Of a stretch of 64,000 bases of DNA, positions 9,873 through 63,342 are shown piece by piece; positions within the stretch are counted from its first letter, which is position 1, and every line of letters begins with the position of its first letter. The notes beneath the pieces are model-generated. The model was not told the origin of the DNA and did no database searches. It saw only the letters and a program-made list of their open reading frames with translations. The position numbers were made by a program, and so were the translations under genes. This DNA comes from Seleniivibrio sp. (GTDB taxonomy: Bacteria > Chrysiogenota > Deferribacteres > Deferribacterales > Geovibrionaceae): positions 62,001 through 126,000 of the forward strand of contig NZ_JAJOIL010000021.1 in the NCBI RefSeq assembly GCF_021209385.1, in the 5' to 3' direction.

Positions 9873-9937
9873 TCATCATCCTTCTGTTCTGTCTGAAAAG
9901 GCAGACAAAAAAGCCCGCTTACGGCAAGCGGGCTTTT
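9873..9937. terminator. Two-hairpin terminator element, copy 2 (bidirectional)
   Basis: Begins TCATCATCC, has hairpin GTCTG (9891-9895) / CAGAC (9902-9906), then a 12-bp stem AAAAGCCCGCTT (9909-9920) / AAGCGGGCTTTT (9926-9937). A and T runs on both sides suit termination in both directions, between the chemoreceptor and the convergent cydB. Confidence 0.85.
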
Positions 9938-20290: not shown

Positions 20291-21406
20291 TTGAATCAGT
20301 TTAAAGTTCCCCCTGTAATGACAATACTGATGGCGGAACTGGGCATCGATCTTTCAAAGGCAGGGCTTATGATGTCTGTCTTTGCTCTTGTTGGTATATT
20401 TATCTCTCTGCCGTCCGGCTACATTGTCGGTCGAATGGGGTTAAAACTTTCGGGCATAGTGGCGGTTGCATCCCTTTTCGTTGGTTCGTTCATAGGCTGG
20501 TTTGCGGAAAACACCTCGTCTATGCTTACCAGCAGAGTTATAGAGGGAATAGGCATGTGTCTGATATCCGTTGTTGCGCCCGCGGTGATAGCGGCCTGGT
20601 TTCCGCCAGAAAAACGCGGGATGCCTATGGGAATCTGGTCTACATGGGTTGCGCTTGGCAGTATAGTGATGCTGCTTGTTGCGCCGCTCCTTAACGGCTG
20701 GCTTGGCTGGAAATCCGTATGGGGAATGACAACTATATATACTGCGTTCATACTTGTTCTTATGGTGTACCCTTTCCGTATGCCGCGTATAGATGAGGCG
20801 CCCCACTATTATGCAGGCGGGGAGCATCATGTCAGTATAAAGGACGTTTACCTTACGCCCGGAGTATGGATACTCGCTCTGATATTTATGATTTTTAATA
20901 TAATGGTCATTGCTGTATGCTCCTTCACTCCGGTTTATCTTGAATCGGAGTTCGGATACTCAAAAGAGCGCGCATCCGCCATCACAAGCTTTTTCCTGAT
21001 ATCTTCATTAGTGACAGCTCCAGCGGCAGGAGTTCTTATACATAAGTTCAGGTTCTACAGAGGGGTTCTTTTCTTTAGTTTTCTTGCCCTGAGCCTTACG
21101 ATAGTTATACCGTATCACGTCAGCGGCGTTCTTATTCCCATCTGTCTGTTTCTTGTTGGTTCTGCGGCGGGGATGATAGCGCCTGCGACCTTTTCGGCTG
21201 TGCCGGAGATAGTTAAAGACCCGAAAGCGGCAGGGGTAGGTATGTCTATCGTTGCATTCGGTCAGTATCTCGGCATGTGTCTTGGACCATTCCTCTTCGG
21301 CGCCATAGCGGAAAAGGCAGGTTGGGAGATGGCTTCCTACTCACTTGTTCCCGTGCTGCTGGCAGGTGCTGCTGCGGCGTATTTTCTCAGGATTCATCCG
21401 CGGTAA
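20291..21406 (+). CDS. MFS transporter (start obscured by probable frameshift)
   Basis: The open frame from a TTG at 20291 encodes 371 residues, but that TTG has no ribosome site and lies inside the first helix. Coding clearly continues upstream in the same frame (KFSFPLIILATIYLASIS) to about 20222. The natural ATG at 20220, behind GTGGGGAT, is out of frame by one base; one more A in the A5 run at 20225-20229 would join them. The protein has about 12 helices and the MFS signature GYIVGRMGLKLSG. Substrate unknown. Its end overlaps the convergent MocR-like gene by 13 bases. Confidence 0.82.
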   Translation: MNQFKVPPVMTILMAELGIDLSKAGLMMSVFALVGIFISLPSGYIVGRMGLKLSGIVAVASLFVGSFIGWFAENTSSMLTSRVIEGIGMCLISVVAPAVIAAWFPPEKRGMPMGIWSTWVALGSIVMLLVAPLLNGWLGWKSVWGMTTIYTAFILVLMVYPFRMPRIDEAPHYYAGGEHHVSIKDVYLTPGVWILALIFMIFNIMVIAVCSFTPVYLESEFGYSKERASAITSFFLISSLVTAPAAGVLIHKFRFYRGVLFFSFLALSLTIVIPYHVSGVLIPICLFLVGSAAGMIAPATFSAVPEIVKDPKAAGVGMSIVAFGQYLGMCLGPFLFGAIAEKAGWEMASYSLVPVLLAGAAAAYFLRIHPR

Positions 21407-22818
21407 TTTTCATTTACCAGGTCTCTCAGCCGGATGATGGTTTTTTCGATGTCCTGTTCCTGAATTGACGCAGGGCACAGAAGAATGTGGCTTGTGTCGT
21501 TCTTGTCGAAGAAGTAGCCTGGGTAGACGTTTGTTATGAGTTCCCTTTTGGAGAAGATGTTTTTAAAATTTACATCGGGAAAATCCAGCCAGAAGTGGAA
21601 ATTACAGTTTTTTTCAATCCAGAAGCCTCTGCTTTTCAGGTGTTTTTCGCACAGGGCAAGGGTCAGCTCCTTTCTGCTGCGTATAAAAGCGCTGATGTCC
21701 TCTGTCATTTTATAGATATTTCCGCTTTTTATCATTTCATCGGCAAGAAGCTGCATTGTAAAGTTCGGTTTCACTCCTGTCTGTATGAACACGTTGCTAA
21801 GATGTTCGATAATGAACCTGTCTGCCACTATCCACGAAAGCTGAAAATCATAAGGGTGGCATTTCAGCAGGCTGCCCAAATAGATTATGTTATCGTTTCT
21901 GTCAATGGATTTCAGCGGGTTGAGCGCCGGTCTGTCGTGCCATATGTTGCTTGAATGGTCTATCTCGACCAGCGGAACACGGTATTTCTGTATAATGTTC
22001 ATGATCTCCTGCCGGCGACGTTTGCTCATTACAACGCCTGTTGGTGCCTGATCCGTCGGATCAACATGAACTATCGGGCAGCATTTGCATTTTATAAGCT
22101 TCTTTTCAAGCTCAACGGCGGACATCCCGTGTTTGTCCATCTTAACGGGTATCATGTTCATACCGATTGAATGAATGTTTGATATGGTGTTTATTATATT
22201 GGTGTTCTCATAAAGAAAGTTCGAGTTTGCGTTAAGGAGTGATTCGTAAACATAGAAAAGTCTCTGTATGGTTTCGGAAGAGATCAGAATGTTCTCTGCC
22301 TTAGTTTTTATACCCAGTTTTTCCAAGTGTTTTCTGATGGATTCCCGCAGTGAAGTCAGTCCGTATTTTGTCAGCTCCGGTGCTGTTTTGCCTGCACTTA
22401 TCCTTTCGGAAGCTCCCCGCATTGCGTCCACAAGATATTTTTCCATATGAAAATCGCTGCTGAGGCTGAAATTTGTCAGTCCGTCGGATTCACCCCAGTG
22501 CCTGTATTCATATACGCTGGTTTTGTGTCTTGCCATGCGGGTGTAGTCGTTCCAGTTCACTCTTCCGTTTTCAAGGTTATAGTTGATGAAATAGCCTGAT
22601 TTCGGGTGAGAGGTGAGAAGCCCTTCTCTCTGAAGTTGTGAAAAAGCAGATATCAGCGTTGTTTTGCTGACGTTCAGCGAGTCCATAAGTGTCTCTCTGC
22701 CTGGCAGTTTCGTTCCGTTTTTCAGATCGCCCATTTTTATTTTCGCTCTGAAATAATCAGCAAGCTGCATATAAATCGGTGATTTCAGGTTTGTATCCGG
22801 TTTCCAGCTAAACAGCAT
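21394..22818 (-). CDS. MocR-like regulator: GntR-type winged helix fused to aminotransferase-like domain
   Basis: 474 residues from the ATG at 22818 behind AAGGGG; the upstream extension is AT-rich non-coding. N-terminal GntR domain (SPIYMQLADYFRAKIKMGDL; GTKLPGRETLMDSLNVSKTT) at about 15-80, linker, then a fold-type-I aminotransferase domain (about 130-470). The PLP-binding Lys position is kept (YLGSLLKCHPYDFQLSW), but the usual Asp-x-Tyr is replaced (EIDHSSNIW). MocR proteins sense PLP or amino compounds. Here it is divergent from the molybdopterin reductase operon across 395 bases, so that operon is the likely target. Confidence 0.88.
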   Translation of the reverse strand: MLFSWKPDTNLKSPIYMQLADYFRAKIKMGDLKNGTKLPGRETLMDSLNVSKTTLISAFSQLQREGLLTSHPKSGYFINYNLENGRVNWNDYTRMARHKTSVYEYRHWGESDGLTNFSLSSDFHMEKYLVDAMRGASERISAGKTAPELTKYGLTSLRESIRKHLEKLGIKTKAENILISSETIQRLFYVYESLLNANSNFLYENTNIINTISNIHSIGMNMIPVKMDKHGMSAVELEKKLIKCKCCPIVHVDPTDQAPTGVVMSKRRRQEIMNIIQKYRVPLVEIDHSSNIWHDRPALNPLKSIDRNDNIIYLGSLLKCHPYDFQLSWIVADRFIIEHLSNVFIQTGVKPNFTMQLLADEMIKSGNIYKMTEDISAFIRSRKELTLALCEKHLKSRGFWIEKNCNFHFWLDFPDVNFKNIFSKRELITNVYPGYFFDKNDTSHILLCPASIQEQDIEKTIIRLRDLVNENYRG

Positions 22819-23213: not shown

Positions 23214-25931
23214 ATGAGACAGATTACACTTAGCAGAAGATCTGTTTTAAAGGCTGCCGGTATTGCCGGTGCCGCATCGATGATGGGCATCAATCTCAGC
23301 CCTGCACATGCGGCCGAAGCGGCGGCAAAGGACAGAACCGAACAGCTTCTTAAAGACGGGTGGCACTTTGGACACTGCCGTATGTGTATGAGAGGTACAT
23401 GCCCTAACCTTTACAAAGTTAAAAACGGTGTGGTTGTGGAGATCATGGGTAACCCCAATACTCCCACAAGCAAAGGCGCACTCTGCGCGAAAGGTCAGTC
23501 TATCATCCAGAACCTTTACAACCCCTACAGGGTAAAAGCACCCATGAAAAGAACCAACCCGAAGAAAGGTCTTTCAGAAGATCCTATGTGGGTTGAAATA
23601 TCATGGGAAGAGGCGATGAGCACCACTGCGGGTGTTCTTAAGAAGGTTCGCGAGAGAGACCCCAGACGTTTCATTTATCAGGTTGGCTTCGGCGATATGG
23701 ATTTCTTCTGTACTTTCATGTTTTACTTTGCCGGTGCGTATGGCACACCCAACTATATTAAAAGTAACGGAACTCTCTGCGTTCTTCACTATGCTTCCGA
23801 CCTTGTTCACGGTGTTTTCCCCGGTGTTAAACCCGACGCGACTTATGCGAAATATATCCTTGCAATGGGCATGAACCTCGGCATGGGTATCGCATCTTCC
23901 GACGGCGGCGTAAGAGGTCTCCTTGACAGAATAGTATACGAAAAAGATATCAAAGTTGTATGTGTCGACCCCCACTGCGGTCCCGACGCATCCAAAACAG
24001 AGTGGGTACCGATCAGACCCGGCGGAGAGCTGGCGTTCATGATGGGTGTTATCCACAGTATGATGTATGAAGTTAAAAAACTTGACTTTGATTTCCTTGC
24101 ATGGCGCACAAACAGCCCCTATCTGATAGGACCCGACGGCTACTATGCAAGAGGAAAAGACGGCAAACCGCAGATACGCGACGCTGCCGACGGCAAAATC
24201 AAATCTTTTGACGATAAAACTCTTAAAAACCCTGATATCTACGCAGAGAACGTCATGGTCAACGGTGTCAAAACCACCGCTTCATTTGTTCTTGTTAAAA
24301 AGGGATTCAAAACTAACACTCCCGAATGGGCTTCTAAAATATCAGGTATCCCCGCGAAAAAGATACGCGAGATCGCAAAGGACTTCATCGACAATGCAAG
24401 TATCGGTGAAACAATCGAGATGGTCAACGGCAAGGGCGAAAAACTTGTTCTGCCGAAAAGAACATCTGTCTGCGAAGGAAAACGCGGTATCAAAAACATG
24501 AGAGACGGCGTTCCCGCTGACCTTATGACTAAAATCATGAACATGCTGGTGGGCTCCATCGACGTACCCGGCGGTATGCTCGGAACTCAGCGCGGACCGT
24601 ACCTCAGCCCCGATCAGGACGGTGTTGTTGCTCCCAAAGGCGAAGCACGCTACAGAGACCCCGTGTATCCGCCCCAGCACGTCAACCTTTCCGAATATTT
24701 CCCGCACAAGCACACTCTGCCTACACTGGCATACAGAGTTGCGGCAGACCCTAAAAAATACGGTCTGGAGTATGAAATAGACGCTCTCCTTGTTGTGGGC
24801 AGTAACCCCATCGCAAGTACAACAGAGCCTTACATGGTTGCCGATTCAGTGGCTAAGATTCCGTTCACGGCTACAGTGGCTTATCACTATGATGAAATGG
24901 CGCATATGTCAAACGTACTGCTGCCCTGCCACGCGCTCCTTGAAAAAGAATCCGTAAACTGCTACGAAGGCGCGTTCGACGTTTATACAAAAGAAACAGT
25001 TACCAAAAAAGTTATGATGTACAGAGAACCCTTCACGCCTGTCTATAACTCCAGACAGCCTCAGGATATCATCATCGAACTTTGCGAACGCATCGGTATG
25101 ATCGACGACTTCAACGCCAACGTCAACAAAACAGGCGTAATGCTCGGCGAAATTACCTTCGCGCAGCTTGAAGACAAGGACAAACTTGTTCCCGGCAAAC
25201 GCTACACCATCAGAGAAATCTGGGATAAAGGCGTTCGCGCATATTTCCACAAGTCGCTGGAAGATATGAAGAAAGAGGGTATGCTGGTAATGGATCTTGC
25301 TGCTGCGGATGCATACAACTCTTCATGGTTCAAAAAAGGCGAAACAAGACACCCTATCTACTTCGAGCGTCTTAAAAAATCTGGGGACGGACTGCGTAAG
25401 TTCTTCACCGAATACAAAGACAAAGTCTATATTCCCGACTTCGATATGGAAGATCAGCTTCAATACTATGAAGCGGTCATCAAATGGCGTCCTAAAAAAC
25501 TCACCGAAGTTAAGAAGGGCGACAAATATGACATGATCTCCATTAACTGGAAGACCCCAACCTCTCCCATGAGGATCGGCGGTAATGACCAGATGCCCTA
25601 TCTGAACGAAGCGAGCGGAACTTTTGACCCCACATACGGTAAGCTCTCCATAAACACAAAGACTGCCAAAGAGAAAGGCATTAAAGAGGGAGACACTATC
25701 TGGGTCGAATCCGAGAACGGAAAGATCAAAGGCGAGGTACACGTTACCGAGCTTATCTTCCCGGATGTTGTGGGAGTTGCCGGTGCTTTGGGACGTCTTG
25801 TGGACAGTCTCGGCAAAAAAGCTGCTTCATATCCGATGTACAACAAACTGACCAACGCGAAAATATCCGACTGCTGCGCTGTGGCTATCGGTGTTTCAAA
25901 CTCGGTTCCGGTCAGAATCTACAAAGCGTAA
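23214..25931 (+). CDS. Tat-exported molybdopterin oxidoreductase, catalytic subunit (arsenate/sulfur-compound reductase-like)
   Basis: 905 residues. Tat signal SRRSVLKAAGIAGAAS at 6-21, cleavage near AHA. An Fe-S cluster site C-x2-C-x3-C-x27-C begins CRMCMRGTC near 60. Typical family blocks follow: GALCAKG, NPYRVKAPMKRTNPKKG, WVEISWEEAM. The likely Mo ligand is Cys in SNGTLCVLHYASD near 186. C-terminal dinucleotide-binding domain ends SNSVPVRIYKA. Relatives include arsenate (Arr), polysulfide/thiosulfate (Psr/Phs) and tetrathionate reductases, and I cannot separate these by eye. First gene of an operon with the Fe-S subunit, chaperone and porin. No membrane anchor subunit is present. Confidence 0.9.
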   Translation: MRQITLSRRSVLKAAGIAGAASMMGINLSPAHAAEAAAKDRTEQLLKDGWHFGHCRMCMRGTCPNLYKVKNGVVVEIMGNPNTPTSKGALCAKGQSIIQNLYNPYRVKAPMKRTNPKKGLSEDPMWVEISWEEAMSTTAGVLKKVRERDPRRFIYQVGFGDMDFFCTFMFYFAGAYGTPNYIKSNGTLCVLHYASDLVHGVFPGVKPDATYAKYILAMGMNLGMGIASSDGGVRGLLDRIVYEKDIKVVCVDPHCGPDASKTEWVPIRPGGELAFMMGVIHSMMYEVKKLDFDFLAWRTNSPYLIGPDGYYARGKDGKPQIRDAADGKIKSFDDKTLKNPDIYAENVMVNGVKTTASFVLVKKGFKTNTPEWASKISGIPAKKIREIAKDFIDNASIGETIEMVNGKGEKLVLPKRTSVCEGKRGIKNMRDGVPADLMTKIMNMLVGSIDVPGGMLGTQRGPYLSPDQDGVVAPKGEARYRDPVYPPQHVNLSEYFPHKHTLPTLAYRVAADPKKYGLEYEIDALLVVGSNPIASTTEPYMVADSVAKIPFTATVAYHYDEMAHMSNVLLPCHALLEKESVNCYEGAFDVYTKETVTKKVMMYREPFTPVYNSRQPQDIIIELCERIGMIDDFNANVNKTGVMLGEITFAQLEDKDKLVPGKRYTIREIWDKGVRAYFHKSLEDMKKEGMLVMDLAAADAYNSSWFKKGETRHPIYFERLKKSGDGLRKFFTEYKDKVYIPDFDMEDQLQYYEAVIKWRPKKLTEVKKGDKYDMISINWKTPTSPMRIGGNDQMPYLNEASGTFDPTYGKLSINTKTAKEKGIKEGDTIWVESENGKIKGEVHVTELIFPDVVGVAGALGRLVDSLGKKAASYPMYNKLTNAKISDCCAVAIGVSNSVPVRIYKA

Positions 25932-26606: not shown

Positions 26607-27236
26607 ATGAGCAGTGTACTTGAAACAAAGACAATAGCGGCAGAGAACGAAGCGGAAGTTTTCACTCTTCTGGCTGCTTTTTATAACATCAATCCCGACC
26701 AGAACTGCGTTGCCGCAATGCGCAATATCGACATTGAGGGAATCTGCGATGAAGATGTCAGGGAGTGTTTCAGAAAGATAACAGATTATGCAAAGGATAC
26801 CGTGGCGGGAGAAGAGAGCGAGTCGCTTCTCGATCTTAAAAGAGACTGGACTAAGCTTTTCCGGGGGGTTTCTCCCGAATACGGTCCCAAAGCTCCGTAT
26901 GAGGCTCTTTATGTCGGCGACAAAGGTACACAGCTCTTTTCTGAGCTGACACAGCTTTATCTGGACGAAGGTTACTGCGGATATTCAGACCTTAAAAACC
27001 GTCAGGACTATATCGGCATATTGCTTGAGTTTGCAGGTTTTCTTGCACTTCTGAAGGTGAATGCCCTTAACTGCGGAAATACGGAAGAATATGACAGACT
27101 GACCGGATGTCTTGAAAACTTCGTCGGCAAACACATCGGCAACTGGTTCCCCATGTTTTATGAGGAAGCGGAAAAACATGTGAAAACAGAGTATTTCAAG
27201 GGCGTTTTAGACCTTACGATGCTCATGCTCGGTTAA
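26607..27236 (+). CDS. TorD/DmsD-family maturation chaperone
   Basis: 209 residues, helical, no signal peptide. LKRDWTKLFRGVSPEYGPKAPYEALYVGDKG carries the family pattern of an aromatic-Tyr-Gly-Pro-x-x-P motif, and the C-terminal block FVGKHIGNWFPMFYEEAEKH fits the same fold. These chaperones bind the Tat leader and guide cofactor loading of the molybdoenzyme, here the product of 23214-25931. Strong ribosome site CCGGAGGTTTAC. Confidence 0.85.
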   Translation: MSSVLETKTIAAENEAEVFTLLAAFYNINPDQNCVAAMRNIDIEGICDEDVRECFRKITDYAKDTVAGEESESLLDLKRDWTKLFRGVSPEYGPKAPYEALYVGDKGTQLFSELTQLYLDEGYCGYSDLKNRQDYIGILLEFAGFLALLKVNALNCGNTEEYDRLTGCLENFVGKHIGNWFPMFYEEAEKHVKTEYFKGVLDLTMLMLG

Positions 27237-27252
27237 GACATAAGGAGATAAT

Positions 27253-28485
27253 ATGAAAAGAATACTTACAGCGTTAATTCCGGCAATGCTGCTTACATTT
27301 ACAGCTTTTGCCGCTGATAACGTAAAAGACATGTTCACACAGGGTTCTGTGAGAGGCGACATAAGATTTCTGGATTTTACAAGGGACTTTGAAGGCAGCA
27401 CAAGCACAAGAGGCGATATGGCAGTGGGCGGACTTCTTTATTACAAAACCGCACCCCTGAAAGGTATCTCTTTCGGTACTGCTTTCGGTACCGTTAACGA
27501 CGTTGACAGCAACGACCACCATACCGTATACGGCACGCTTCAGAAAGATGACAACGGCGATCACCAGAGCTTCAGCCGTATGCAGGAATACTACATTCAG
27601 GGTGAGTATTTTGATACGGTAGTGAAATACGGTGCTCAGGAAATCCGCACACCCTTTATGGAAGTGCATGACCTGCGTATGCTCCCCAGAACCTATAAAG
27701 GTCTGTCAGTTATAAACAACAGCGTTGACAACCTTACCCTGTCCGCGTACTACATCACAGATTCAATGGGATGGAGCGACGATCATTTCATCTCTCTTTC
27801 AGAAGCTGTGGCAAACGAACCCGGCGGCGCATCAACTATTGATGACGAAAAAGCAATGATCATACTCGGCGCTTCATACAACGTTCCCGTTGAAGCTGTT
27901 AAAACAAACGTTCAGGGATGGTACTACACAATGGATGATGTCTATAACCAGACATTCTTCAAAGTAGCTCTGTCAAAAGATTTCAATGGTTTTACTCTTT
28001 ATGCCAAACCCTCTGTTCTGTGGCAGAAATCTCAGGGTGATGAACTGAACGGCGATCTTGACACTCATCAGTACGGTATCAGCGGCGGTATCAAAACCCT
28101 CGGATTCGACGTTACTGCTTTCTATGCGAAAACAGGCGACGACGGCATAGTTGCTCCATGGGGTGATGAAAAGGCTATAATCCAGCAGATACTTGCAGCA
28201 GGCAGAGCTGAAGAGAAAGCAAAAGCTCTGAAAGTAGGCTACGACTTCGGCAAACTCGGCGTTAAAGGTCTCAGTGCATATGTGTTCTATGCCGACTATG
28301 ATGTTCCCTCATCAACAGGTCAGGACATGTCTGAAATGGACTACAGCGTGCAGTATGCATTCTCCGGCGCCCTTGACGGTTTCGGAGTAAGAGCCAGATA
28401 TGCCGATATCAAAGTTGACGGCGGCGAAGATTATAACGACACAAGGTACTATGTAACTTACAAATTTGCATTCGGAAATAAATAA
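27253..28485 (+). CDS. OprD-like outer-membrane porin, paralogue 1
   Basis: 410 residues. Sec signal (cleavage near AFA at about 20) then a beta-barrel of alternating strands ending YYVTYKFAFGNK, with a C-terminal region typical of outer-membrane insertion. Signature start DMFTQGSVRGDIRFLDFTRDF. A clear paralogue lies at 60779-62008 (same FDF/LDF-TR, RMQEYYIQG / RLQEYWVQG and WYY blocks). It is 17 bases after the chaperone gene behind AAGGAG, so it is co-expressed with the molybdopterin reductase. Inferred role: entry of that enzyme's substrate into the periplasm. Confidence 0.82.
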   Translation: MKRILTALIPAMLLTFTAFAADNVKDMFTQGSVRGDIRFLDFTRDFEGSTSTRGDMAVGGLLYYKTAPLKGISFGTAFGTVNDVDSNDHHTVYGTLQKDDNGDHQSFSRMQEYYIQGEYFDTVVKYGAQEIRTPFMEVHDLRMLPRTYKGLSVINNSVDNLTLSAYYITDSMGWSDDHFISLSEAVANEPGGASTIDDEKAMIILGASYNVPVEAVKTNVQGWYYTMDDVYNQTFFKVALSKDFNGFTLYAKPSVLWQKSQGDELNGDLDTHQYGISGGIKTLGFDVTAFYAKTGDDGIVAPWGDEKAIIQQILAAGRAEEKAKALKVGYDFGKLGVKGLSAYVFYADYDVPSSTGQDMSEMDYSVQYAFSGALDGFGVRARYADIKVDGGEDYNDTRYYVTYKFAFGNK

Positions 28486-52745: not shown

Positions 52746-52775
52746 TATTTTGATGTTACATCATATGGAGGTTCT

Positions 52776-53435: not shown

Positions 53436-53446
53436 CCCTCCGTCAT

Positions 53447-53500
53447 TACTCCTTTCCATAGGGGTAGAATACGATATGGCATAGGTATTATCACCTATGC
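53447..53500. promoter_or_regulatory. Candidate response-regulator operator before flavoprotein 2
   Basis: TACTCCT (53447-53453) and AGGGGTA (53460-53466) are inverted heptamers fitting the NarL consensus TACYYMT, 6 bases apart. A perfect inverted repeat GCATAGGT (53479-53486) / ACCTATGC (53493-53500) contains a third (TACCTAT on the minus strand). Spacing differs from the classical 7-2-7 site, so binding is inference; the second repeat could also be a weak terminator of the regulator gene. Confidence 0.45.
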
Positions 53501-53643
53501 GGCGTAGAGAATTCATTCCATATCTCATTCATAAATATGTACCACTGTAATCCCAGAACCCTGCTGGATATTTTGTATTGTTCTGTCGGCATATAATCTG
53601 AACAATCCATAGCAATATGGAACAGAATATAAAGGAGGACAAG

Positions 53644-55176
53644 ATGAGAAAGGGATTATCAAAGATTCCTGCCGGTTTTATCTGTATTTTTATTTCTTTA
53701 TTTTGTATGTCGGCTTTTGCCAAAGACAGGGTTTATCAGGCTGATGTCGTTGTTGTTGGCGCCGGAGGTTCCGGTCTTGCAGCTTCAGTTTCTGCGGCGG
53801 AACACGGAGCCAAAGTTATTACTCTTGAAAAAAGAGAGATCGCAGGCGGAACTACTTCGTTTGCCGAAGGTTTGTTTGCCATCGGAACTGACGAAACAAG
53901 AGTGGCATCCGTTGACATATCAGTTGACGATGCTTTTGACCACTCAATGGAATTTAACCACTGGAGAGCTAACGCTCCCTTGGTAAGGAAGTTTATTCAG
54001 GAATCACCGAACACAATAAACTGGCTTCATGGTTTTGGTCTTACATTTGAACCATGGAACATGGCTCCCACAGAGCCAAGAGTATGGCATGTGGTCGGTC
54101 ATTACAAAAACATGGAACATGGTGCCGCATATGTTCAGGCGATGCTTGATAAATGCGAAGAACTGGGCGTTAAGATAATGTATGAAACACCCGCTACAGA
54201 GCTTATTATCGAAAAGGGTGTCATAAAAGGAGTTATTGCTCAGGATTCCAGAGGTAACAAGGTTATAGTAAATGCCAAAGCCGTAGTCCTTGCGACAGGC
54301 GGTTTCTCCGAGAACAACGAGATAATAGCTAAATACACCCGTTATGAACCCGGTTCAGTCTTTCCTACAGTTCCTCTGGGTAAAACAGGAGAAGGCTTTA
54401 AAATGGCTCTTCAGGCGGGAGCTGTTTTAGATGATGCGGGCATGCTGCTTATGATGCACCCCGGTTCATACGGTCCCGGATTTAAACCTTTCGGTGATCT
54501 TGATACCATGACAACTCAGCCTCTTCTCTGGGTCAACAAATACGGAGAGAGAATAATTGACGACAAGATGATAGGCAGCCTTATGGTGAGCGCAAACGCA
54601 ATCTATCGCCAGGATGGTCACTACGTCTGGTCGATATGGGATGAGGATACTATCAACTATTACAAAACCAAAGGTCTTGACACAGGACTTGGGGTTATTG
54701 TCAAGGCCGGAACAAAAATCAGCAATACTGTAAAAGAGATTGAAGACTGCATTAAAGCAGGAAGTAAAAACGTAGCTATGGCAGATTCTCTTGAGGAACT
54801 GGCAAAGCAGATGGAAATGGATCCTAAATCTCTTAAAGCCACAGTGGACAGATATAACAAAATGAAAGCTGACAACGAGGATGTCGATTTCGGAACTCCC
54901 GCACGTCTGATGAAATACATTAAAAAGTCTAAATTTTATGCTGTAAAAGTATTCCCGTCATCGTTCATTTCTCTCGGCGGTCCGCAGATCAATACAAAAA
55001 TGCAGGTTATGACAAAAAACAATAAGCCTGTTCAGGGGCTGTATTCCGTAGGATGTGATGCAGGCGGTGTTCACAGTGACACATATACTCTTTGGACATC
55101 CGGTGCAGGATTCTCTTTTGCAGCCACATCCGGAAGAATTGCCGGAGCCGACGCGGCAGATTTTGCAAAAAAATAA
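53644..55176 (+). CDS. Periplasmic FAD-dependent reductase of unknown substrate (fumarate reductase family), module 2
   Basis: 510 residues from the ATG at 53644 behind AAGGAGG. Sec signal ending SAFA (not Tat). FAD site VVVVGAGGSGLAASVSAA near 35-52 and ATGGF near 222. A His is kept in MMHPGSYG, but the fumarate-binding set is gone: QPLLWVN replaces the Arg loop, no TTRD Arg, SFISLGG replaces the HH-TMGG, and VHSDTY near 476-481 replaces GTNRLGG. So it very likely reduces something other than fumarate. No haem domain; the heptahaem cytochrome at 56155 is the probable electron donor. A MetA-type barrel follows 17 bases later. Confidence 0.87.
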   Translation: MRKGLSKIPAGFICIFISLFCMSAFAKDRVYQADVVVVGAGGSGLAASVSAAEHGAKVITLEKREIAGGTTSFAEGLFAIGTDETRVASVDISVDDAFDHSMEFNHWRANAPLVRKFIQESPNTINWLHGFGLTFEPWNMAPTEPRVWHVVGHYKNMEHGAAYVQAMLDKCEELGVKIMYETPATELIIEKGVIKGVIAQDSRGNKVIVNAKAVVLATGGFSENNEIIAKYTRYEPGSVFPTVPLGKTGEGFKMALQAGAVLDDAGMLLMMHPGSYGPGFKPFGDLDTMTTQPLLWVNKYGERIIDDKMIGSLMVSANAIYRQDGHYVWSIWDEDTINYYKTKGLDTGLGVIVKAGTKISNTVKEIEDCIKAGSKNVAMADSLEELAKQMEMDPKSLKATVDRYNKMKADNEDVDFGTPARLMKYIKKSKFYAVKVFPSSFISLGGPQINTKMQVMTKNNKPVQGLYSVGCDAGGVHSDTYTLWTSGAGFSFAATSGRIAGADAADFAKK

Positions 55177-55193
55177 TTATATGAGCTATTAAA

Positions 55194-56084
55194 ATGCAAA
55201 ACAAAACATATTTGAAAATTTTTAAATTTTTTGCCGTTTCCTTAGTATTTGCATGCAGTATGTCTGCATTTGCAATGGAAAACGGAAACAGTTCATATCC
55301 GAACGGTTCGGAAGATTTTTTGGCGAAGCTGAACGATGAAGGGCTTAATATTATAAATTACCTGAGCTACCGTCATAACACAGACAGCTATGACAACTCC
55401 GGTAATAAAAAAGATATGAAGTTCGACAGCAAGGCTATTGTCGATACTTTCAGGATTATTTATAACACAGGTCTGAAACCCTTTGGCGGTTCTCTCGGCG
55501 TCCATATGCTTATTCCTGTTGTGGATCTTGAGCTTAAAACACCGGGCGGCAATGATGATGCTTCCGGTGTTGCAGACGTGGTTATCGGTGTTAATGAAGC
55601 ATTTCATTCAAAAAACAGACATATTATTGTCGGTATAGATGTTACTACTCCCACAGGCGATTATAACAAGAATGATATCGCTAATTTGGGTAAAAACCAC
55701 TATACCATCGAACCTTATGCGCTTACCCACTATATCACGGATACAGGTTTTGAAATTGGTGCAAAGTTTATGTATGACTACAACACCGAAAACAACGATA
55801 CCGATTATAAATCCGGTCAGGAGTTTCACATTGACTACATAATGGGGCAGCACTTCGGTCCATATAATGTAGGTCTTGGCGGTTATCTTTACAAACAGAT
55901 AACTGACGACAAACAGAATGGCTCGGAAATTGAAGATTACCGTGCGCAGGCAGCCGGTATCGGTCCTGTCTTCAAATACGGCTATAAATCAGCATCCTTC
56001 ACAGTGAAATATGTTAAAGATTTTGCTGTTGAAAACACATCCGGCGGGGATCAGTATTGGTTTAAAATCAATTACGCTTTCTGA
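55194..56084 (+). CDS. Outer-membrane beta-barrel transporter (phenol-degradation MetA/SphA type)
   Basis: 296 residues. Signal peptide ending SAFA, then the family start ENGNSSYPNGSEDFLA, and beta-strands such as SLGVHMLIPVVDLEL, HIIVGIDVTTPTGDYN and a C-terminal aromatic YWFKINYAF. Members sit in aromatic-compound degradation clusters and are thought to let hydrophobic substrates across the outer membrane. Here it directly follows flavoprotein 2, so it may import that enzyme's acceptor. The ribosome site is weak, suggesting coupling to the gene before. Confidence 0.8.
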   Translation: MQNKTYLKIFKFFAVSLVFACSMSAFAMENGNSSYPNGSEDFLAKLNDEGLNIINYLSYRHNTDSYDNSGNKKDMKFDSKAIVDTFRIIYNTGLKPFGGSLGVHMLIPVVDLELKTPGGNDDASGVADVVIGVNEAFHSKNRHIIVGIDVTTPTGDYNKNDIANLGKNHYTIEPYALTHYITDTGFEIGAKFMYDYNTENNDTDYKSGQEFHIDYIMGQHFGPYNVGLGGYLYKQITDDKQNGSEIEDYRAQAAGIGPVFKYGYKSASFTVKYVKDFAVENTSGGDQYWFKINYAF

Positions 56085-56098
56085 GAAGGGTAACAACC

Positions 56099-56133
56099 AA
56101 AAGCGGTCGTTTTATACGGCCGCTTTGTTGTTT
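56099..56133 (+). terminator. Hairpin between the barrel and heptahaem cytochrome genes
   Basis: AAAAGCGGTCGT (56099-56110) / ACGGCCGCTTTG region (56116-56127) with loop TTTAT, one T-G pair, then TTGTTTC. It may be a partial terminator that lowers expression of the cytochrome. Confidence 0.65.
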
Positions 56134-56154
56134 CATTGAATTTTAGGGTGAAAA

Positions 56155-56817
56155 ATGGAAAAAATTAAATTTGTAATAAACTGTTTTTTTATTTTGATGT
56201 TTTTAACGATATCCAGCGCTTATGCGGCTTCTTTCGACTATTCGTGTGTCGATTGTCATGAAAAACCGATTTTGCCAGCCAAACATATAGTAAAAGAAAA
56301 CTTTACCGGATGTTTCGACTGCCACAAAGACGGCGGAAAAAGTAAAAAACTTGGCTGGTTTGTGCACAATAAACATCTTGGGGGTCAGGATTTAAATGAT
56401 GAGTTGTGCACGACCTGCCATAGAACTGATTCTGAAGGTGAGATTACAATAAATAATTCTCCGGTTATTAAAATTTCAAAAGAAGACATTCCTGATTATA
56501 CAGACAGGTTTAAGACTTGGGTAAAGTCCGACAAGCTAGCCTATGCGCATAATGAAAAAGGCGTCGGATGCAGCGGGTGCCATACTACTTTTGATCCTGA
56601 TGAAACTGACAATATTTCATCCAAATGCATTAACTGCCATGGCAACTTTCAGGATGTGGCAAAATTAACTGATGATAAAACAAAATATGAACGTAATCCT
56701 CATAAATCACATTACCCGAGACTGCAATGTGTGAAATGCCACTCTGTACACGGTGATTTTAATGACTATTGCGACAAATGCCATCATACAGGTTTTAAAT
56801 GGAAGCTGAAAGGTTGA
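56155..56817 (+). CDS. Periplasmic heptahaem cytochrome c
   Basis: 220 residues, Sec signal ending AYA. Seven CXXCH sites: CVDCH, CFDCH, CTTCH, CSGCH, CINCH, CVKCH and CDKCH. The last part (NPHKSHYPRLQCVKCH, then DYCDKCHHTGFKWK) resembles the end of the tetrahaem domain of fumarate-reductase flavocytochromes. It looks like an expanded version of that domain. It follows the barrel gene 70 bases on and is the natural electron donor for flavoprotein 2. A strong terminator follows. Confidence 0.9.
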   Translation: MEKIKFVINCFFILMFLTISSAYAASFDYSCVDCHEKPILPAKHIVKENFTGCFDCHKDGGKSKKLGWFVHNKHLGGQDLNDELCTTCHRTDSEGEITINNSPVIKISKEDIPDYTDRFKTWVKSDKLAYAHNEKGVGCSGCHTTFDPDETDNISSKCINCHGNFQDVAKLTDDKTKYERNPHKSHYPRLQCVKCHSVHGDFNDYCDKCHHTGFKWKLKG

Positions 56818-57051: not shown

Positions 57052-57270
57052 TGTAACCCACCCGTAAGATAGAACCAGAAATAGCCAGAGTTTTCCGTTT
57101 AAATACAACAGGAAGACTCAATGCAACGTAGCCGATTTACTGAACCACGGATCGTAAAAATACTTAAAGAAGTTGAAGCAGGCAGACTCGTCAAAGATGT
57201 TTGTCGGGAGTATGGTATTTCAGATGCCGCATATTACGATTGAAAGTCCAATTCAAAACGTTACGATATA
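57052..57270 (+). mobile_element. IS3-family insertion sequence remnant
   Basis: Contains the start of an IS3-type OrfA (57121-57243) with no rest of orfA, no orfB and no right end. TGTAACCCACCCG at 57052 may be the left terminal sequence. It lies between the heptahaem cytochrome terminator and the convergent MocR-like gene, at the border of module 3. Ends are approximate. Confidence 0.6.
57121..57243 (+). pseudogene. Truncated IS3 orfA transposase fragment
   Basis: Forty codons, MQRSRFTEPRIVKILKEVEA then GRLVKDVCREYGISDAAYYD, match the N-terminal helix-turn-helix of IS3/IS911 OrfA. The next codon is TGA where the family has Trp (TGG), followed by KSNSK, so a nonsense change is followed by loss of similarity. 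Dead fragment. Confidence 0.75.
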
Positions 57271-57277
57271 GCCGCGA

Positions 57278-58693
57278 TTACATACAATTTTTCAATTCTT
57301 CACATAATATCAGTATTGATGATTCAATTTCATGCACATCAGTGTTGGTGTAGCATAAGGCAAAATGTTTTGTATCACTTGGCACAAATCTTTTTCCTGC
57401 CTGTATTCTCAGTTTAAAAGCCGGATTGCAGTTTAAACTTTCAACAACCGCACTGAGATTTGCAGCTCCGTTGTATTTAAGCCAGAAATATATGCCCGCA
57501 TAAGGTCTTTCCCATTCTAAAATGCCTGCGCAGTATTTTTTCAGGAGTGCCTCAAAATGATCGCAGCGTCCGGTGAGTTTTTCAGGAAGGTCATTAAGGA
57601 ATAATTCAAACTCGTCTGACATCAGAATCTCTTCCAAAATTAGCTGACTTATTGCAGAAGAATGAAATTCAAGCTGAATTTTAATGTCACAGAATCGCTG
57701 AATCAAAAGCGGCGGTGCAACAATTGCAGCAACTTGCAGGTGTGGGCATATTACATTGGCTACTGTGTCAATGTATATAACCTTATCCGAATACATTTCC
57801 TGAAAAGTTTTTACAGAATCAGCGGTCAGCCGATAATAGCGTTTTTGTTCATTTTCAATAATCGGAACCGGACTATTGACAATGATGTCAAGAATCTCTT
57901 TCTTTCTGTTCATTGAAATTGAAACTCCATCAGGTTCTGAACCGGTCGGTTCTGTGTAAAGTACGGCATTATTGAAAAGTTTAGAATATTTTGCCAGTTG
58001 TTGAGAGCTTATCCCCTCCATATCAATACTTAAGGGGATTAAATTTGCTTTTGTATCTTTTAGTTTGTTTATGCTGTTATAAAGGAAGTTTTCAGGATGA
58101 AAAACATTTACCCCGCATGACAGAAGACTATGGAATACTATGGATATAGCCAAGGCTCCACCGGATACGATAAGCAATTCATTTTCTGTTACTTTCAGTC
58201 CCTGTTTTCTTAAAAACTCTGAATAGATCCTGCGCAGGCTTGGCAATCCCTGAATATCAATGGTCTCATAGCTTTCCTGTTCAAAAATCCTTTCGGCTGC
58301 TTTATTTAAAGCAGTTTTCAGAATATGCCTAGTATTGAAATCCAAAGACAATCCCGGTGTCTGAGCTATAAAAGGTGTACGATTCTGTTCTTTTTTGATT
58401 CTTTGTTCCCACCATGCGTTCGGCAGAGTACTTGTGTTGAAAAGCGACAGCCAGTTAATGCTTTTGTTTTCGTCACAATAGCAGACGTAACATCCGCTGC
58501 CGTGTTTAATATCAATTATTCCTATTCCGCTGAGTATTTCCAGAGCCTGATTTATAGTAAATCTGCTGACTCCGTATTTGTGAGACAATACACGAAGAGA
58601 AGGTAAAATAGAACCTTTTGGATATTTACCATCAAGAATGTCATTTCTGATATCGTCCGCAATCTTCTGGTAAGAAGGAATTCCTTTTTTCAA
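57278..58693 (-). CDS. MocR-like regulator without the PLP lysine
   Basis: 471 residues from a TTG at 58693 placed after AAGGGGCGATCCG; an ATG at 58732 is the alternative but would leave only 67 bases to the divergent gene. GntR winged helix (IPSYQKIADDIRNDILDGKY; GVSRFTINQALEIL) at about 4-70, then an aminotransferase-like domain. At the place of the PLP lysine (GS-x-x-K) the sequence is IDTVANVICPHLQVAAIV: Lys is Asn. The Asp-x-Tyr site is IIENEQKRY. PLP Schiff-base binding is therefore unlikely and another ligand may be sensed. Divergent from flavoprotein 3. Confidence 0.85.
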   Translation of the reverse strand: MKKGIPSYQKIADDIRNDILDGKYPKGSILPSLRVLSHKYGVSRFTINQALEILSGIGIIDIKHGSGCYVCYCDENKSINWLSLFNTSTLPNAWWEQRIKKEQNRTPFIAQTPGLSLDFNTRHILKTALNKAAERIFEQESYETIDIQGLPSLRRIYSEFLRKQGLKVTENELLIVSGGALAISIVFHSLLSCGVNVFHPENFLYNSINKLKDTKANLIPLSIDMEGISSQQLAKYSKLFNNAVLYTEPTGSEPDGVSISMNRKKEILDIIVNSPVPIIENEQKRYYRLTADSVKTFQEMYSDKVIYIDTVANVICPHLQVAAIVAPPLLIQRFCDIKIQLEFHSSAISQLILEEILMSDEFELFLNDLPEKLTGRCDHFEALLKKYCAGILEWERPYAGIYFWLKYNGAANLSAVVESLNCNPAFKLRIQAGKRFVPSDTKHFALCYTNTDVHEIESSILILCEELKNCM

Positions 58694-58799
58694 CGGATCG
58701 CCCCTTTTATAAAATTGAAAACAAAGTGTCATGAAAAAAAAATCAATAGTGTCCTGCCAGAAAAATACCACAGAAATTATCCTGCGTCAGGAGGTAATA

Positions 58800-60308
58800 A
58801 TGAAAAAAATAATAGTTCTTATTTTTATGTTAACCTGCCTCAATAATTCATATGCAGCAAAAGTATATAATGCTGATGTTGTAGTGGTTGGTGCAGGTGG
58901 ATCGGGCAATGCCGCTGCTGTTCAGGCAGCACAGCTGGGTGCGAAAGTTATTGTTCTTGAAAAGCAAGCAGCTGCCGGCGGTAACGCAAATTTCTGCGAG
59001 GGAATTTTCGGTGCAGACAGTAAATTTCAGAGATCGCAAAATTTGCCAAATGTTTCAAAGGAGGATCTTTTCAACAAAATAATGGATTTTAACCATTATA
59101 AAGGTGATCCGCTTCTGGTCAGTGCATTTGTAAATCAGTCTGCTGATACTATAGAGTGGCTGCAGAGTCTTGGAGTAAAGATCGACGGAGTATTTCTTGA
59201 AGCGGATTCAAGAACATACACATGGCACAGGTTTAACGGACTTTGCCGTGCAATGACCGAAACTCTCATAAAATCTTATCCCAAATACGGTATCCAGCTC
59301 ATGCTTGAGACAGAGGCAAAAGATGTCATCATGAAAGATGGCAAAGCTGTGGGAGTAAAAGCATTCAACGTTGAGGACGGTGATATAGTTATTAATGCCA
59401 AAGCAGTAATAATTGGAACCGGCGGATTTGTAAGCAATGCGGAAATGCTCAAAAAGTATGCGGATTTTAAAGGTCCCATAACTGCTATTGGTGCGAAAAA
59501 CAGAACTGGTGACGGCATACGTATGGCTCTTGCGGCAGGCGCAAAGCCAGAAGGACTCGGCACCGTCCAGTATCATTCTCCCAGTCCCAGATTTGCCGGC
59601 TTTGCAGGTATTGAACGCAGAAAAACAGGTTTCGGGTTCAACCAGCCTGTTCTTTGGGTGAATTCATTCGGGAAGCGCTTTGTTAACGAATATGAAGTCA
59701 GAAACTTTTCAATAGCCGGGAATGCCGCTGTAAGGCAGAAGAACGGACTTGTTATCAAACTTCTGGATTCAGCAGTAATTGATCAATATGAGAAAGAAGG
59801 ACTCGATTTCGTTGGCGGTGTTAACCCGAGAGTGCCTTTCACAAATCTGCTCAGAGATATAGAAGCTGATGTTCAGGCTGGAAACGTAGTTAAGGCTAAT
59901 ACAATTGAGGATCTCGCAAAGCAGCTCAATAAAAAATTCGGTACAGAAATTGATCCCAAGATTCTTCAGGCAACTGTTGACCAGACAAATCATGCTTATG
60001 ATAAGAATTTTGACGATCTTTTCTTTAAACCCAGAAAGGTTCTGCACTCATTTCGGACCCCTCCATACTATGCAATCGCAACTTATCCGGCAGCTCTCGG
60101 CACAGTGGGCGGCATCAGAGTCGATGAAAATTGTCAGGCTGTTGACAACGATTTCCACCCCATCCCCGGACTTTTTGTTGTCGGTGCGGATGCCGGAGGA
60201 ATGTACGGAGACACTTATGACATTATCGTTGCAGGCGAAACAATTGGTTTTGCAGTGAATTCCGGTCGTCTTGCCGCAAAGCACGCTGTCGCAACGTATG
60301 TGAAATAA
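58800..60308 (+). CDS. Periplasmic FAD-dependent reductase of unknown substrate, module 3
   Basis: 502 residues from the ATG at 58800 behind CAGGAGG. Sec signal ending SYA. FAD site VVVVGAGGSGNAAAVQAA near 26-43. It belongs to the same branch as flavoprotein 2: QPVLWVNSFGKRFVNE, PAALGTVGG where fumarate reductases have HH-TMGG, and VGADAGGMYGDTY near 461-473 instead of GTNRLGG. One Arg in EYEVRNFS may match the catalytic acid. The acceptor is unknown and unlikely to be fumarate. The cytochrome gene 15 bases downstream supplies electrons. Confidence 0.87.
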   Translation: MKKIIVLIFMLTCLNNSYAAKVYNADVVVVGAGGSGNAAAVQAAQLGAKVIVLEKQAAAGGNANFCEGIFGADSKFQRSQNLPNVSKEDLFNKIMDFNHYKGDPLLVSAFVNQSADTIEWLQSLGVKIDGVFLEADSRTYTWHRFNGLCRAMTETLIKSYPKYGIQLMLETEAKDVIMKDGKAVGVKAFNVEDGDIVINAKAVIIGTGGFVSNAEMLKKYADFKGPITAIGAKNRTGDGIRMALAAGAKPEGLGTVQYHSPSPRFAGFAGIERRKTGFGFNQPVLWVNSFGKRFVNEYEVRNFSIAGNAAVRQKNGLVIKLLDSAVIDQYEKEGLDFVGGVNPRVPFTNLLRDIEADVQAGNVVKANTIEDLAKQLNKKFGTEIDPKILQATVDQTNHAYDKNFDDLFFKPRKVLHSFRTPPYYAIATYPAALGTVGGIRVDENCQAVDNDFHPIPGLFVVGADAGGMYGDTYDIIVAGETIGFAVNSGRLAAKHAVATYVK

Positions 60309-60323
60309 TGCGAGAGGCTTAGA

Positions 60324-60695
60324 ATGAAAAAAATAATACTGATGATTGTGAGTTTGATCATACTCGCTTTCTTTTTAACTGCATACGCAGAAGACAAACA
60401 AGCCGGTAAGATCACTGGAAAACATAAAGAAGCGGGACTTAGCTGTAGTGATTGCCACAAAGAAAAAACTCCATCGGCAAGACCATCTCAGAAAGTTTGC
60501 CGTGATTGCCACGGTGATATGACTGATACAAAAAGCAAAGTGTACAAGGATATCGCAGGACACGAAGTCACCTTTAATCCTCACTATACTCATACAGGCA
60601 GTATGAGATGTACTTTGTGCCACAAAATGCACAGCACTTCTGAGCTTTATTGTAATACCGGCTGCCACCATAAATTTCAGGTTAAGGTTCCCTGA
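60324..60695 (+). CDS. Small periplasmic tetrahaem cytochrome c with one CX3CH site
   Basis: 123 residues, Sec signal ending AYA. Haem sites CSDCH, CRDCH and CTLCH plus a fourth, CNTGCH, in which three residues separate the cysteines. Histidines in GKHKEAG and NPHYTHTG are likely second ligands. It resembles the free form of the haem domain of flavocytochrome c and the partial gene at 1-167. It carries electrons from the membrane quinol dehydrogenase to flavoprotein 3. No membrane NrfH/CymA-type donor is encoded in the window. Confidence 0.88.
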   Translation: MKKIILMIVSLIILAFFLTAYAEDKQAGKITGKHKEAGLSCSDCHKEKTPSARPSQKVCRDCHGDMTDTKSKVYKDIAGHEVTFNPHYTHTGSMRCTLCHKMHSTSELYCNTGCHHKFQVKVP

Positions 60696-60713
60696 CGATT
60701 CATTGCTTTACAT

Positions 60714-60749
60714 CTGCTGTAGTTTGTTTAGCCAGACAGGCTACAGCAG
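60714..60749 (+). other. mRNA hairpin between cytochrome and porin genes
   Basis: CTGCTGTAG (60714-60722) / CTACAGCAG (60741-60749), 9 perfect pairs, with no T run. Probably an mRNA stability or expression-tuning element within the module 3 operon. Confidence 0.5.
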
Positions 60750-60778
60750 CCCCAAAAAATAAGATGGAGGATTTTTAA

Positions 60779-62008
60779 ATGAGAAACATTGTATTTCTAT
60801 TAGCTTTAATGATATTTCCGTGTTACACGGCTTTTGCTTCAGATAATATTCAGGATGCATTTTCAGACGGTACTTTAAAAGGAGAATTGAGAGTTTTCGA
60901 TTTTTCACGCGAATTCACCGATTCAACAACAACTAGACATGATACGGCTGCCGGCATGCTCATGTACTATAACTCAGATTCACTCTACGGATTATCTGCC
61001 GGTGGCGCATTTGCCACATCAAACGACATCGGAAGCAGTGATCAGGATGACGTTTACGGTCTGCTTGCCAAAGACAAGAAAGGAGATCATGAAAGTTTTA
61101 CCCGTCTTCAGGAATACTGGGTGCAGGGCGACTATTTCAAAACAAAAGTCAAAATAGGGGCTCAGCAGATACACTCCCCATGGGCAAGCGAACGTGATGT
61201 ACGTCTTGTTCCTAACACTTTTAAAGGTCTTACTGTTGTTAACAAATCAATACCCAACCTTGTTGCTTCTTTTTACTATATAACTGAATTCAATGCTGTG
61301 GATTCAACGTCTTTTATGTCAATATCTAAATCTATCAACAGTAATATTACAGAAGATAAAGACCTTCAGGTTGTGTCTCTTGATTATGATATTCCCGCTT
61401 CTTTTGCAAAAATGAAAGTTCAGGGCTGGTACTACAATGTACCGGATATTTTTAACACCGGATGGTATGGTTTTGATATCAGTAAAAAATACGAAAGCTT
61501 TGAACCATATCTGGAATCTCAGGCGATTATCCAGAGATCACAGGGTGATGAACTCGCAGGAGATATCAGCACAGAACAGTATGCTGCAACAACCGGTATA
61601 AGATTCAGAAAAGGATTTGACGTTAGCATCGCTTATGCAAAAACCACTGATGGAGACCTTCTTGACCCATGGGGTGGCAAAAAAGGAATTCTTCAGACAG
61701 TAAAAGGTGCAGACCGCGCACATGAAGATACTTATGTAGCTGCGGTTAAATATGACTTCTCGAAAATTGGCGTAAACGGTCTCACTGCCCTCGTCTCATA
61801 TGGAATTTATGATATTCCGGGTATGCAAGGTCCGTGGGGTGATATGCGGGAAACAGATTGCGATGTTCAATACCGCTTTTCAGGCAAACTTGAGGGCTTT
61901 AAACTCAGAACACGCTACTCCATTGTAAACATACAAAATGCGGCTGACTGGAAAGATGTGAGAATTATGGCATCATATACTTTCACGCTGAAAGGAAAGA
62001 AAAAATAA
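60779..62008 (+). CDS. OprD-like outer-membrane porin, paralogue 2
   Basis: 409 residues behind TGGAGGATTTTTAA. Signal ending TAFA, then DAFSDGTLKGELRVFDFSRE, GDHESFTRLQEYWVQGDYF and a barrel ending YTFTLKGKKK. Clearly homologous along its length to the porin at 27253-28485. It belongs to the flavoprotein 3 operon and may admit that enzyme's substrate. The pair shows that one porin family has been matched to two unrelated reductases. Confidence 0.82.
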   Translation: MRNIVFLLALMIFPCYTAFASDNIQDAFSDGTLKGELRVFDFSREFTDSTTTRHDTAAGMLMYYNSDSLYGLSAGGAFATSNDIGSSDQDDVYGLLAKDKKGDHESFTRLQEYWVQGDYFKTKVKIGAQQIHSPWASERDVRLVPNTFKGLTVVNKSIPNLVASFYYITEFNAVDSTSFMSISKSINSNITEDKDLQVVSLDYDIPASFAKMKVQGWYYNVPDIFNTGWYGFDISKKYESFEPYLESQAIIQRSQGDELAGDISTEQYAATTGIRFRKGFDVSIAYAKTTDGDLLDPWGGKKGILQTVKGADRAHEDTYVAAVKYDFSKIGVNGLTALVSYGIYDIPGMQGPWGDMRETDCDVQYRFSGKLEGFKLRTRYSIVNIQNAADWKDVRIMASYTFTLKGKKK

Positions 62009-62051
62009 CCCAATACAATCTTCCCTCCTTTTAGGTTTTATATGGGTCTTC

Positions 62052-62078
62052 GGGGAACTGTTTACCAGTTCCCCTTTT
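62052..62078 (+). terminator. Intrinsic terminator of the flavoprotein 3 operon
   Basis: Stem GGGGAACTG (62052-62060) / CAGTTCCCC (62066-62074), loop TTTAC, then TTTT. Confidence 0.85.
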
Positions 62079-62109
62079 ATCATTTATTACGGTACAAAAA
62101 GGAGATAAA

Positions 62110-63342
62110 ATGGAATGTTTATTGATCAGTCACAGACGGAGACAGTTTGTCATTCTTTTTATTATTAATTCCTGCATTAACATGGGCATAGGAGCATTTG
62201 AATCGTTTTTTGCGCTTCATCTGATCAAAAATGGTATCAGTGGTATCGCTCTCGGTATCATTCTTGCACTACCGGCATTTCCCAAAATTATAGCAGGGCA
62301 TCTATTCGGCAAATTAGGTGACAAATTTGACAAAGGATATCTTCTGCTTGCTTCTCTGAGTTCACTATTGATTGCAGGATTAATCTATTTATGGTGTAAC
62401 GTCGACATCCCGGTATTGTCCGTTCTAAGGATAGTACAGGGTTGTTCTCTTGCACTTTTCAGACCTGTAATTTTTTCATTGGTTGGCAGTTGTGTTGATG
62501 AGAAAGACAGGGCAGAAAAATTCGGAATATTTGATATATCATTTTATGTATGTGTAGGGGTTGCTCCACTGTTCGGTGGTTTTCTGTATGACATTTATAG
62601 CTTCTCTGTGATTGTTTTATGTTCTGTAGTTTTTTCTTGTGCAGGTTTGCTTTTAACTGTTGTACACATCGATAATATTGGCAGACAAACCAATGAGATA
62701 GTTCCAGGAGCATGTTCGTCCGGAGACAGCAGTACCGTCTCTCTTTATGCTCTTTGTATCTTTATTGTCGGCAGATCCTGTGCGATTTCAATGACCAATA
62801 CATTTTTACCTGTTTTTTTTGTTGTGGAAAAGAACATCTCAAAAATGTCTACAGGATTGATTCTTTCATTATCAACATTGGTAATGGCGGTTTTTTTAAA
62901 GTTTTCAGGTCGGGCAGCAGAGAAGTATTCAAAATATTTTATGATCATGTCAGGCGGTGTTTTGTTCTCTTTAAGCTGTTTTTTTATCGTACTAATTGAC
63001 GGTTTTATCCCGTATATATTTCTTTTTACATTAATCGGTCTTTCCGGTTCATTGTCTCAGCCTTCTGTTTCTGCACTTTTAATGTCTTCTGATAAAAAAA
63101 ATAGTCTCTGCGAGTCAGTGGGTATTTTCAACGCTTTTATGAGTAGCGGGTTTGCGACTGGACCGCTTATCGGTGCTGTTATTGTAAAATTTTTCGGACT
63201 GATAAATGTCTTTTTAACTGCAGGCTTAATTAGTCTGATTTCGCTTATTGGTTTCACTATAATCAGCAAAAAACAGATATTAACACCCAACTTTAAAATC
63301 GGATCAAATAAAAGAAGAAAAATGGTTTGTAAACTGGAATAG
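62110..63342 (+). CDS. MFS transporter near module 3
   Basis: 410 residues, about 12 helices, ribosome site AAGGAG. GIALGIILALPAFPKIIAGHLF leads to the first-half signature GKLGDKFDKGYLL; the second half has FSGRAAEKYSKYFMIMSGG. The gene looks more AT-rich than the first 50 kb of the window, which suggests separate origin. It may carry the substrate or product of module 3, or be unrelated. Separated from the porin by a terminator. Confidence 0.85.
   Translation: MECLLISHRRRQFVILFIINSCINMGIGAFESFFALHLIKNGISGIALGIILALPAFPKIIAGHLFGKLGDKFDKGYLLLASLSSLLIAGLIYLWCNVDIPVLSVLRIVQGCSLALFRPVIFSLVGSCVDEKDRAEKFGIFDISFYVCVGVAPLFGGFLYDIYSFSVIVLCSVVFSCAGLLLTVVHIDNIGRQTNEIVPGACSSGDSSTVSLYALCIFIVGRSCAISMTNTFLPVFFVVEKNISKMSTGLILSLSTLVMAVFLKFSGRAAEKYSKYFMIMSGGVLFSLSCFFIVLIDGFIPYIFLFTLIGLSGSLSQPSVSALLMSSDKKNSLCESVGIFNAFMSSGFATGPLIGAVIVKFFGLINVFLTAGLISLISLIGFTIISKKQILTPNFKIGSNKRRKMVCKLE

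Follow-up and report, generated by a model that had tools for sequence, protein, structure and literature searches.

Loss of PLP-site residues in a clade of MocR-like regulators encoded beside respiratory reductase genes in Deferribacterales

The regulator gene and its divergent operon

The window analyzed here is a stretch of 64,000 nucleotides from a contig of Seleniivibrio sp. It contains a reverse-strand gene for a MocR-like regulator, designated P0001, which faces four forward-strand genes presumed to be its target operon:

57278..58693 (-), MocR-like regulator P0001, 471 amino acids (aa), with an N-terminal GntR winged helix-turn-helix and a C-terminal fold type I aminotransferase-like domain whose PLP site is missing
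57755..57757 (-), codon of Asn313, in the column of the Schiff-base Lys in residue and clade-profile alignments
57851..57853 (-), codon of Asn281, in the column of the pyridine-nitrogen Asp; the preceding Glu280 is retained
58694..58799 (no strand), divergent intergenic region of about 106-107 bp, presumed operator
58800..60308 (+), FAD_binding_2 flavoprotein with a signal-peptide-like start, resembling flavocytochrome c and vinyl phenol reductase below NCBIfam cut-offs, presumed operon gene 1
60324..60695 (+), small multihaem cytochrome c with three CxxCH motifs, presumed operon gene 2
60779..62008 (+), OprD-family outer membrane porin, presumed operon gene 3
62110..63342 (+), MFS transporter, presumed operon gene 4 from gene order and strand

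The reading frame of P0001 is open for 471 codons from a TTG start at 58693, upstream of which lies an AAGGGG-like Shine-Dalgarno sequence; a longer alternative frame, opened by GTG, reaches 58771. Both halves of the MocR layout are recognized by Pfam, the GntR domain (PF00392) at 6.5e-17 and the aminotransferase domain (Aminotran_1_2, PF00155) at 5.7e-5. The best NCBIfam match is the PdxR model NF052282, at 202 bits against a cut-off of 320, and P0001 scores below the cut-offs of all the named MocR types listed.

The start codon of the flavoprotein lies 106 bp from that of P0001. Direct and inverted repeats in the intervening region (58694-58799) did not exceed those in dinucleotide shuffles (0.31 and 0.75). 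The best NCBIfam model for the flavoprotein is vinyl phenol reductase (328 bits against a cut-off of 600) and the relatives with known structures are fumarate and urocanate reductases; that its acceptor is an enoate or an aromatic alkene is our guess.

Adjoining the 3' end of P0001, at 57121-57243, is a stop-ended, 40-residue N-terminal fragment of a transposase (HTH_Tnp_1, 9.4e-10). A search of the genome contig collection with P0001 alone returned no orthologue, in 59 genomes no match other than P0001 itself exceeded 29% identity, and a profile search of 50 genomes of the phylum added none. The fragment and the absence of an orthologue together hint that the locus was rearranged or acquired.

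PLP-site residues in P0001 and its clade

In GabR, Lys312 forms the Schiff base with PLP and Asp279 contacts the pyridine nitrogen, and both are conserved across MocR clusters, according to PMC6677901. In P0001, these positions are occupied by Asn313 and Asn281, respectively. Residue alignment places 'DTVANVICPHLQ' of P0001 on 'DSFSKIISSGLR' of human kynurenine aminotransferase II, and a clade-profile alignment with GabR and PdxR sets Asn313 in the column of the Lys in 'MGTFSKSL'/'LGAFSKSL', with N, I or V of the clade in the Asp column. An earlier note had read DTVANV in P0001 in place of the MocR motif GS-F-S-K, with Asn for Lys, and had considered the pyridine-nitrogen Asp to be replaced as well; both readings hold in the alignments, the counterpart of the motif being 'DTVAN' with N as the Lys replacement. 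The column of the phosphate-binding Arg contains Gln in P0001. By the residues tested, P0001 would fall outside the PLP-binding MocRs in the strict sense, and its layout is MocR-like.

The relatives of P0001 were gathered with a profile of 23 sequences (A1) run over 50 genomes of the phylum. This yielded 66 rows, of which 38 genes from 16 genomes were assigned to a clade that includes P0001, 20 are canonical MocRs, and 8 are neither: two fragments of a broken copy (L087), three second matches (L135, L137, and L140), L064 (which has Lys), and two rows outside the site counts (G014:C103 and G016:C41). A single genome, G016, contributes eight clade copies. Excluding the incomplete L120, 37 clade members can be read at the site.

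Among these 37, the Lys column is occupied by Arg in 14, Lys in 6, Asn in 6, Gly in 4, Leu in 2, and Tyr, Val, Gln, Ala and Asp in 1 each. Not one has Asp at the pyridine-nitrogen column, and only 3 retain the phosphate Arg, as opposed to 20 of 20 canonical MocRs from the phylum. The latter also have Lys in every case and Asp in 19 of 20 (the other being Glu), and 10 of 10 canonical MocRs from other phyla have both Lys and Asp. The presence of Lys in all 20 in-phylum and all 10 other canonical proteins places Asn at this column beyond chance. With Lys, Asp and the phosphate Arg all changed in P0001 and lost as a set across the clade, the sequences strongly support the proposal of the earlier note that PLP is probably not the ligand.

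Retention of the Lys by relatives, which the earlier note had set against its own reading, does occur, in 6 of 37 readable members, but these six are without Asp and without the phosphate Arg. Five of the six group together in a sub-clade, and its near relatives carry Arg at this position, suggesting that Lys and Arg are interchangeable here and that the position supplies a positive charge and not a Schiff base. The site residue is uniform within sub-clades (Arg in 7 of 7 in one, Lys in 5 of 5 in another), and the 12 flavoprotein-linked members have Arg in ten cases, Lys in one, and Asn in P0001. Glu280 is invariant (36 of 36). Three further residues, all away from the PLP site and all present in P0001, mark the clade: Trp81 in the linker (36 of 36, against a gap in 23 of 30 controls), Arg263 (34 of 36, against 8 of 30 controls), and Trp394 (34 of 36).

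In a tree of 66 rows (36 from the clade, including L072, with 20 canonical MocRs and 10 from other phyla), the clade, P0001 included, is one side of a branch with 100/100 support. Raw identity is insufficient to place P0001, its relatives in its own genome and order being 22-29% identical and a Paenibacillus MocR 27%, and a second tree was therefore built with six plasmid-borne MocRs. This tree, a chosen subset of 44 rows (22 from the clade and 22 others), again separates the clade at 100/100 with P0001 inside. Incomplete rows (L117, L119, and L120) were excluded from the trees. The branch of P0001 is the longest in both (1.84 in the 66-row and 1.77 in the 44-row tree), and the nearest path from it leads to L101, which is linked to a flavoprotein and comes from the genome of P0001.

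The clade belongs to one bacterial order, probably the Deferribacterales. In 98 genomes of 98 families outside the phylum, the best match reached 5e-75, and the 10 matches that were read have Lys and Asp. A sub-clade alignment (A4) recovered five loci from the genome contig collection, four from Deferribacterales/Deferribacteraceae and one, L072, from 'Deltaproteobacteria bacterium Gx481_bin32'; L068-L071 were not counted as independent of genomes G006 and G021. L072, which has Lys at the site and has lost Asp, may reflect transfer or misbinning. It is the single clade copy in that genome, has an in-frame TGA within the matched stretch, and neighbors genes for a HEAT-repeat protein and a radical SAM protein.

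Among nine pairs of close clade members, none involving P0001, dN/dS was 0.05-0.11 in five and dS was saturated in the other four. Four of the five measurable pairs are of the Arg type, with no Lys, indicating that PLP-less proteins are maintained. Other clade copies contain in-frame stops or frame breaks (L087 at 8697-9901, L117, and L118), and the presence of broken copies in some genomes suggests that the set is gained and lost.

Linkage to terminal reductases

Flanks of up to 7 kb per side, some shortened by contig ends, were compared for the 38 clade genes and 20 canonical MocRs, and their genes were labeled from 14 molybdopterin and six flavoprotein seeds, all Pfam-confirmed and drawn from clade flanks. 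A reductase gene, either a molybdopterin oxidoreductase or an FAD_binding_2 flavoprotein, lies within 2 kb of 35 of the 38 clade genes (23 molybdopterin and 12 flavoprotein, the largest distance being 1678 bp) but of none of the 20 canonical MocRs (Fisher P = 9.6e-13, uncorrected for kinship, a value that overstates independence because the counts include near-copies from related genomes). Three clade genes lack such a neighbor: L103 and two that lie at the ends of contigs (L096 and L113). Among the canonical MocRs, 4 of 20 have a reductase at about 3.5 kb. An OprD porin or multihaem cytochromes also occur at many clade loci.

In the genome of P0001 (G000), all four clade genes adjoin a reductase, whereas by arithmetic a random gene would have one equally near about 8% of the time, the 2.9 Mb of this genome encoding about 33 of them. 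FAD_binding_2 proteins of full length account for about 22 of these and molybdopterin oxidoreductases for about 11, a large possible set of terminal reductases. One locus in this genome (L101, G000:C10:75668-91101) contains two clade regulators, three flavoproteins, two OprD porins, an MFS transporter, and multihaem cytochromes. Another clade member is encoded in the window itself, divergent from a molybdopterin reductase operon:

21397..22818 (-), second clade member, with Lys at the site and Asp lost
23214..25931 (+), molybdopterin oxidoreductase, 905 aa, divergent from the preceding gene
26607..28485 (+), Nitrate_red_del (NarJ-type chaperone) and OprD genes, 3' of the oxidoreductase

The type of reductase follows the tree. 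Over the 32 labeled rows, it changes three times, compared with a mean of about 10 when labels are shuffled, and none of 500 shuffles was as low.

Loss of the PLP residues and a site column that varies among clade members (R, K, N, G, L, Y, V, Q, A, D) resemble what is expected of a released site, and the aminotransferase-like domain could have become a dimerization scaffold only, with an empty cavity and a regulator that answers to some other input or acts constitutively. We consider this unlikely: the site is uniform within the Arg and Lys sub-clades, Glu280 and the clade-specific residues are conserved, and the paralogues track the type of reductase beside them.

Models, comparable systems, and proposed role

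The AlphaFold2 model of P0001 has a pLDDT of 66 and a pTM of 0.56, and that of the second clade member in the window has a pLDDT of 75; the alignments behind both contained seven sequences. GabR and PdxR are the best Foldseek matches of the P0001 model, which aligns with the C-terminal domain of GabR at Z 24.7 (rmsd 4.1, 343 residues). The second protein aligns with this domain at Z 32.5 (rmsd 2.9, 345 residues) and with the full GabR chain at Z 33.2 (rmsd 13.9, 432 residues), and GabR ranks first for both models. The structural comparison with GabR and PdxR that the earlier note had proposed agrees on the fold; the old PLP site lies in a low-confidence stretch (pLDDT about 60) from which no geometry was drawn.

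MocRs are described as PLP dependent in PMC5320631 and PMC6522883. The Lys is conserved in 278 EnuR proteins and is needed for induction, and EnuR with the Lys302His change is unable to accept PLP and represses constitutively (PMC8739950), from which it follows that an otherwise normal MocR would no longer be inducible if it lost just the Lys. P0001 might still use PLP as a PdxR-like sensor, without a Schiff base or through another lysine: its fold and overall profile are closest to GabR and PdxR, its sequence is compatible with noncovalent PLP, and the six relatives with Lys could bind PLP covalently. With Asp, the phosphate Arg, and Lys all altered in P0001, and no B6 gene among those clade neighbors that carry Pfam annotation (a subset of the flank genes), such use of PLP is quite improbable. 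P0001 might instead be a copy in decay, or one that arrived recently, with a nonworking sensor, as its long end branch, the lack of an orthologue in 4 congeners and 50 phylum genomes, the adjoining transposase fragment, and the broken copies elsewhere in the clade might imply; its 471 stop-free codons, strong GntR domain, plausible Shine-Dalgarno sequence, and position divergent from an intact operon make this very doubtful as well.

In our view, P0001 is probably a protein of MocR architecture that works without PLP, one of a clade in which the aminotransferase fold came to sense a ligand directly and to switch the neighboring reductase operon. In this scheme, the GntR domain would bind the divergent promoter region, and the cavity once occupied by PLP, in a dimeric aminotransferase-like domain, would accommodate a small molecule with no Schiff base. 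Binding of the ligand would alter the contact with DNA and thereby switch the respiratory-reductase operon alongside, which for P0001 would be the flavoprotein, cytochrome c, OprD porin, and MFS transporter genes at 58800-63342. The signal for P0001 is probably the organic electron acceptor of these divergent genes, or its product, as the earlier note had suggested; the presence of a reductase within 2 kb of 35 of the 38 genes in the clade, as opposed to 0 of 20 for canonical MocRs, lends this indirect support. More tentatively, it is conceivable, at slightly less than even chances, that one order turned a vitamin B6 transcription factor into a set of paralogous cofactor-free receptors, each reading the acceptor of the adjoining terminal reductase.

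The known MocR subfamily (GabR, PdxR, EnuR/EhuR, and YczR) shares with P0001 the GntR winged helix-turn-helix and the fold type I aminotransferase-like domain but differs in the Lys, Asp, and phosphate-Arg columns, which P0001 has lost, and in its linkage to B6, GABA or ectoine genes rather than to respiratory reductases. Canonical MocRs of the phylum, which share domain layout and genome with P0001 (e.g., G000:C8:30013, locus L125), keep SFSK, EDD, and Arg, unlike P0001, and none of the 20 has a reductase within 2 kb. The MocR architecture itself is known, but the clade-wide loss of the cofactor and the tie to terminal reductases look new: the open-access literature searched contained neither a Lys-less MocR clade nor MocRs tied to terminal reductases. 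Automatic annotation names many MocRs 'PLP-dependent aminotransferase family protein,' and a clade in which the fold outlasted its cofactor would amount to a natural experiment on how an enzyme fold becomes a receptor. If its members are cofactor-free acceptor receptors, the clade would be a key for guessing acceptors from gene order, and the list of regulator-reductase pairs could be used to screen for unknown anaerobic electron acceptors.

The closest parallel to the target operon is the Mrd-Mcc methacrylate reductase and flavocytochrome c operons, which likewise pair a periplasmic flavoprotein with a multihaem cytochrome. Such pairs are reported in Deferribacteres too, and no MocR regulator is named, in the portion available of PMC4427408; the best model for the flavoprotein at 58800..60308 is instead vinyl phenol reductase, at a score below cut-off. 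A second respiratory cluster in the window (51298-56817) encodes a PAS histidine kinase, a response regulator, a flavoprotein, a Phenol_MetA_deg outer-membrane protein, and a 7-haem cytochrome. Its flavoprotein and cytochrome closely resemble the methacrylate reductase pair Mrd-Mcc, and the frame of its histidine kinase appears to be split (51298-52290 and 52305-52745).
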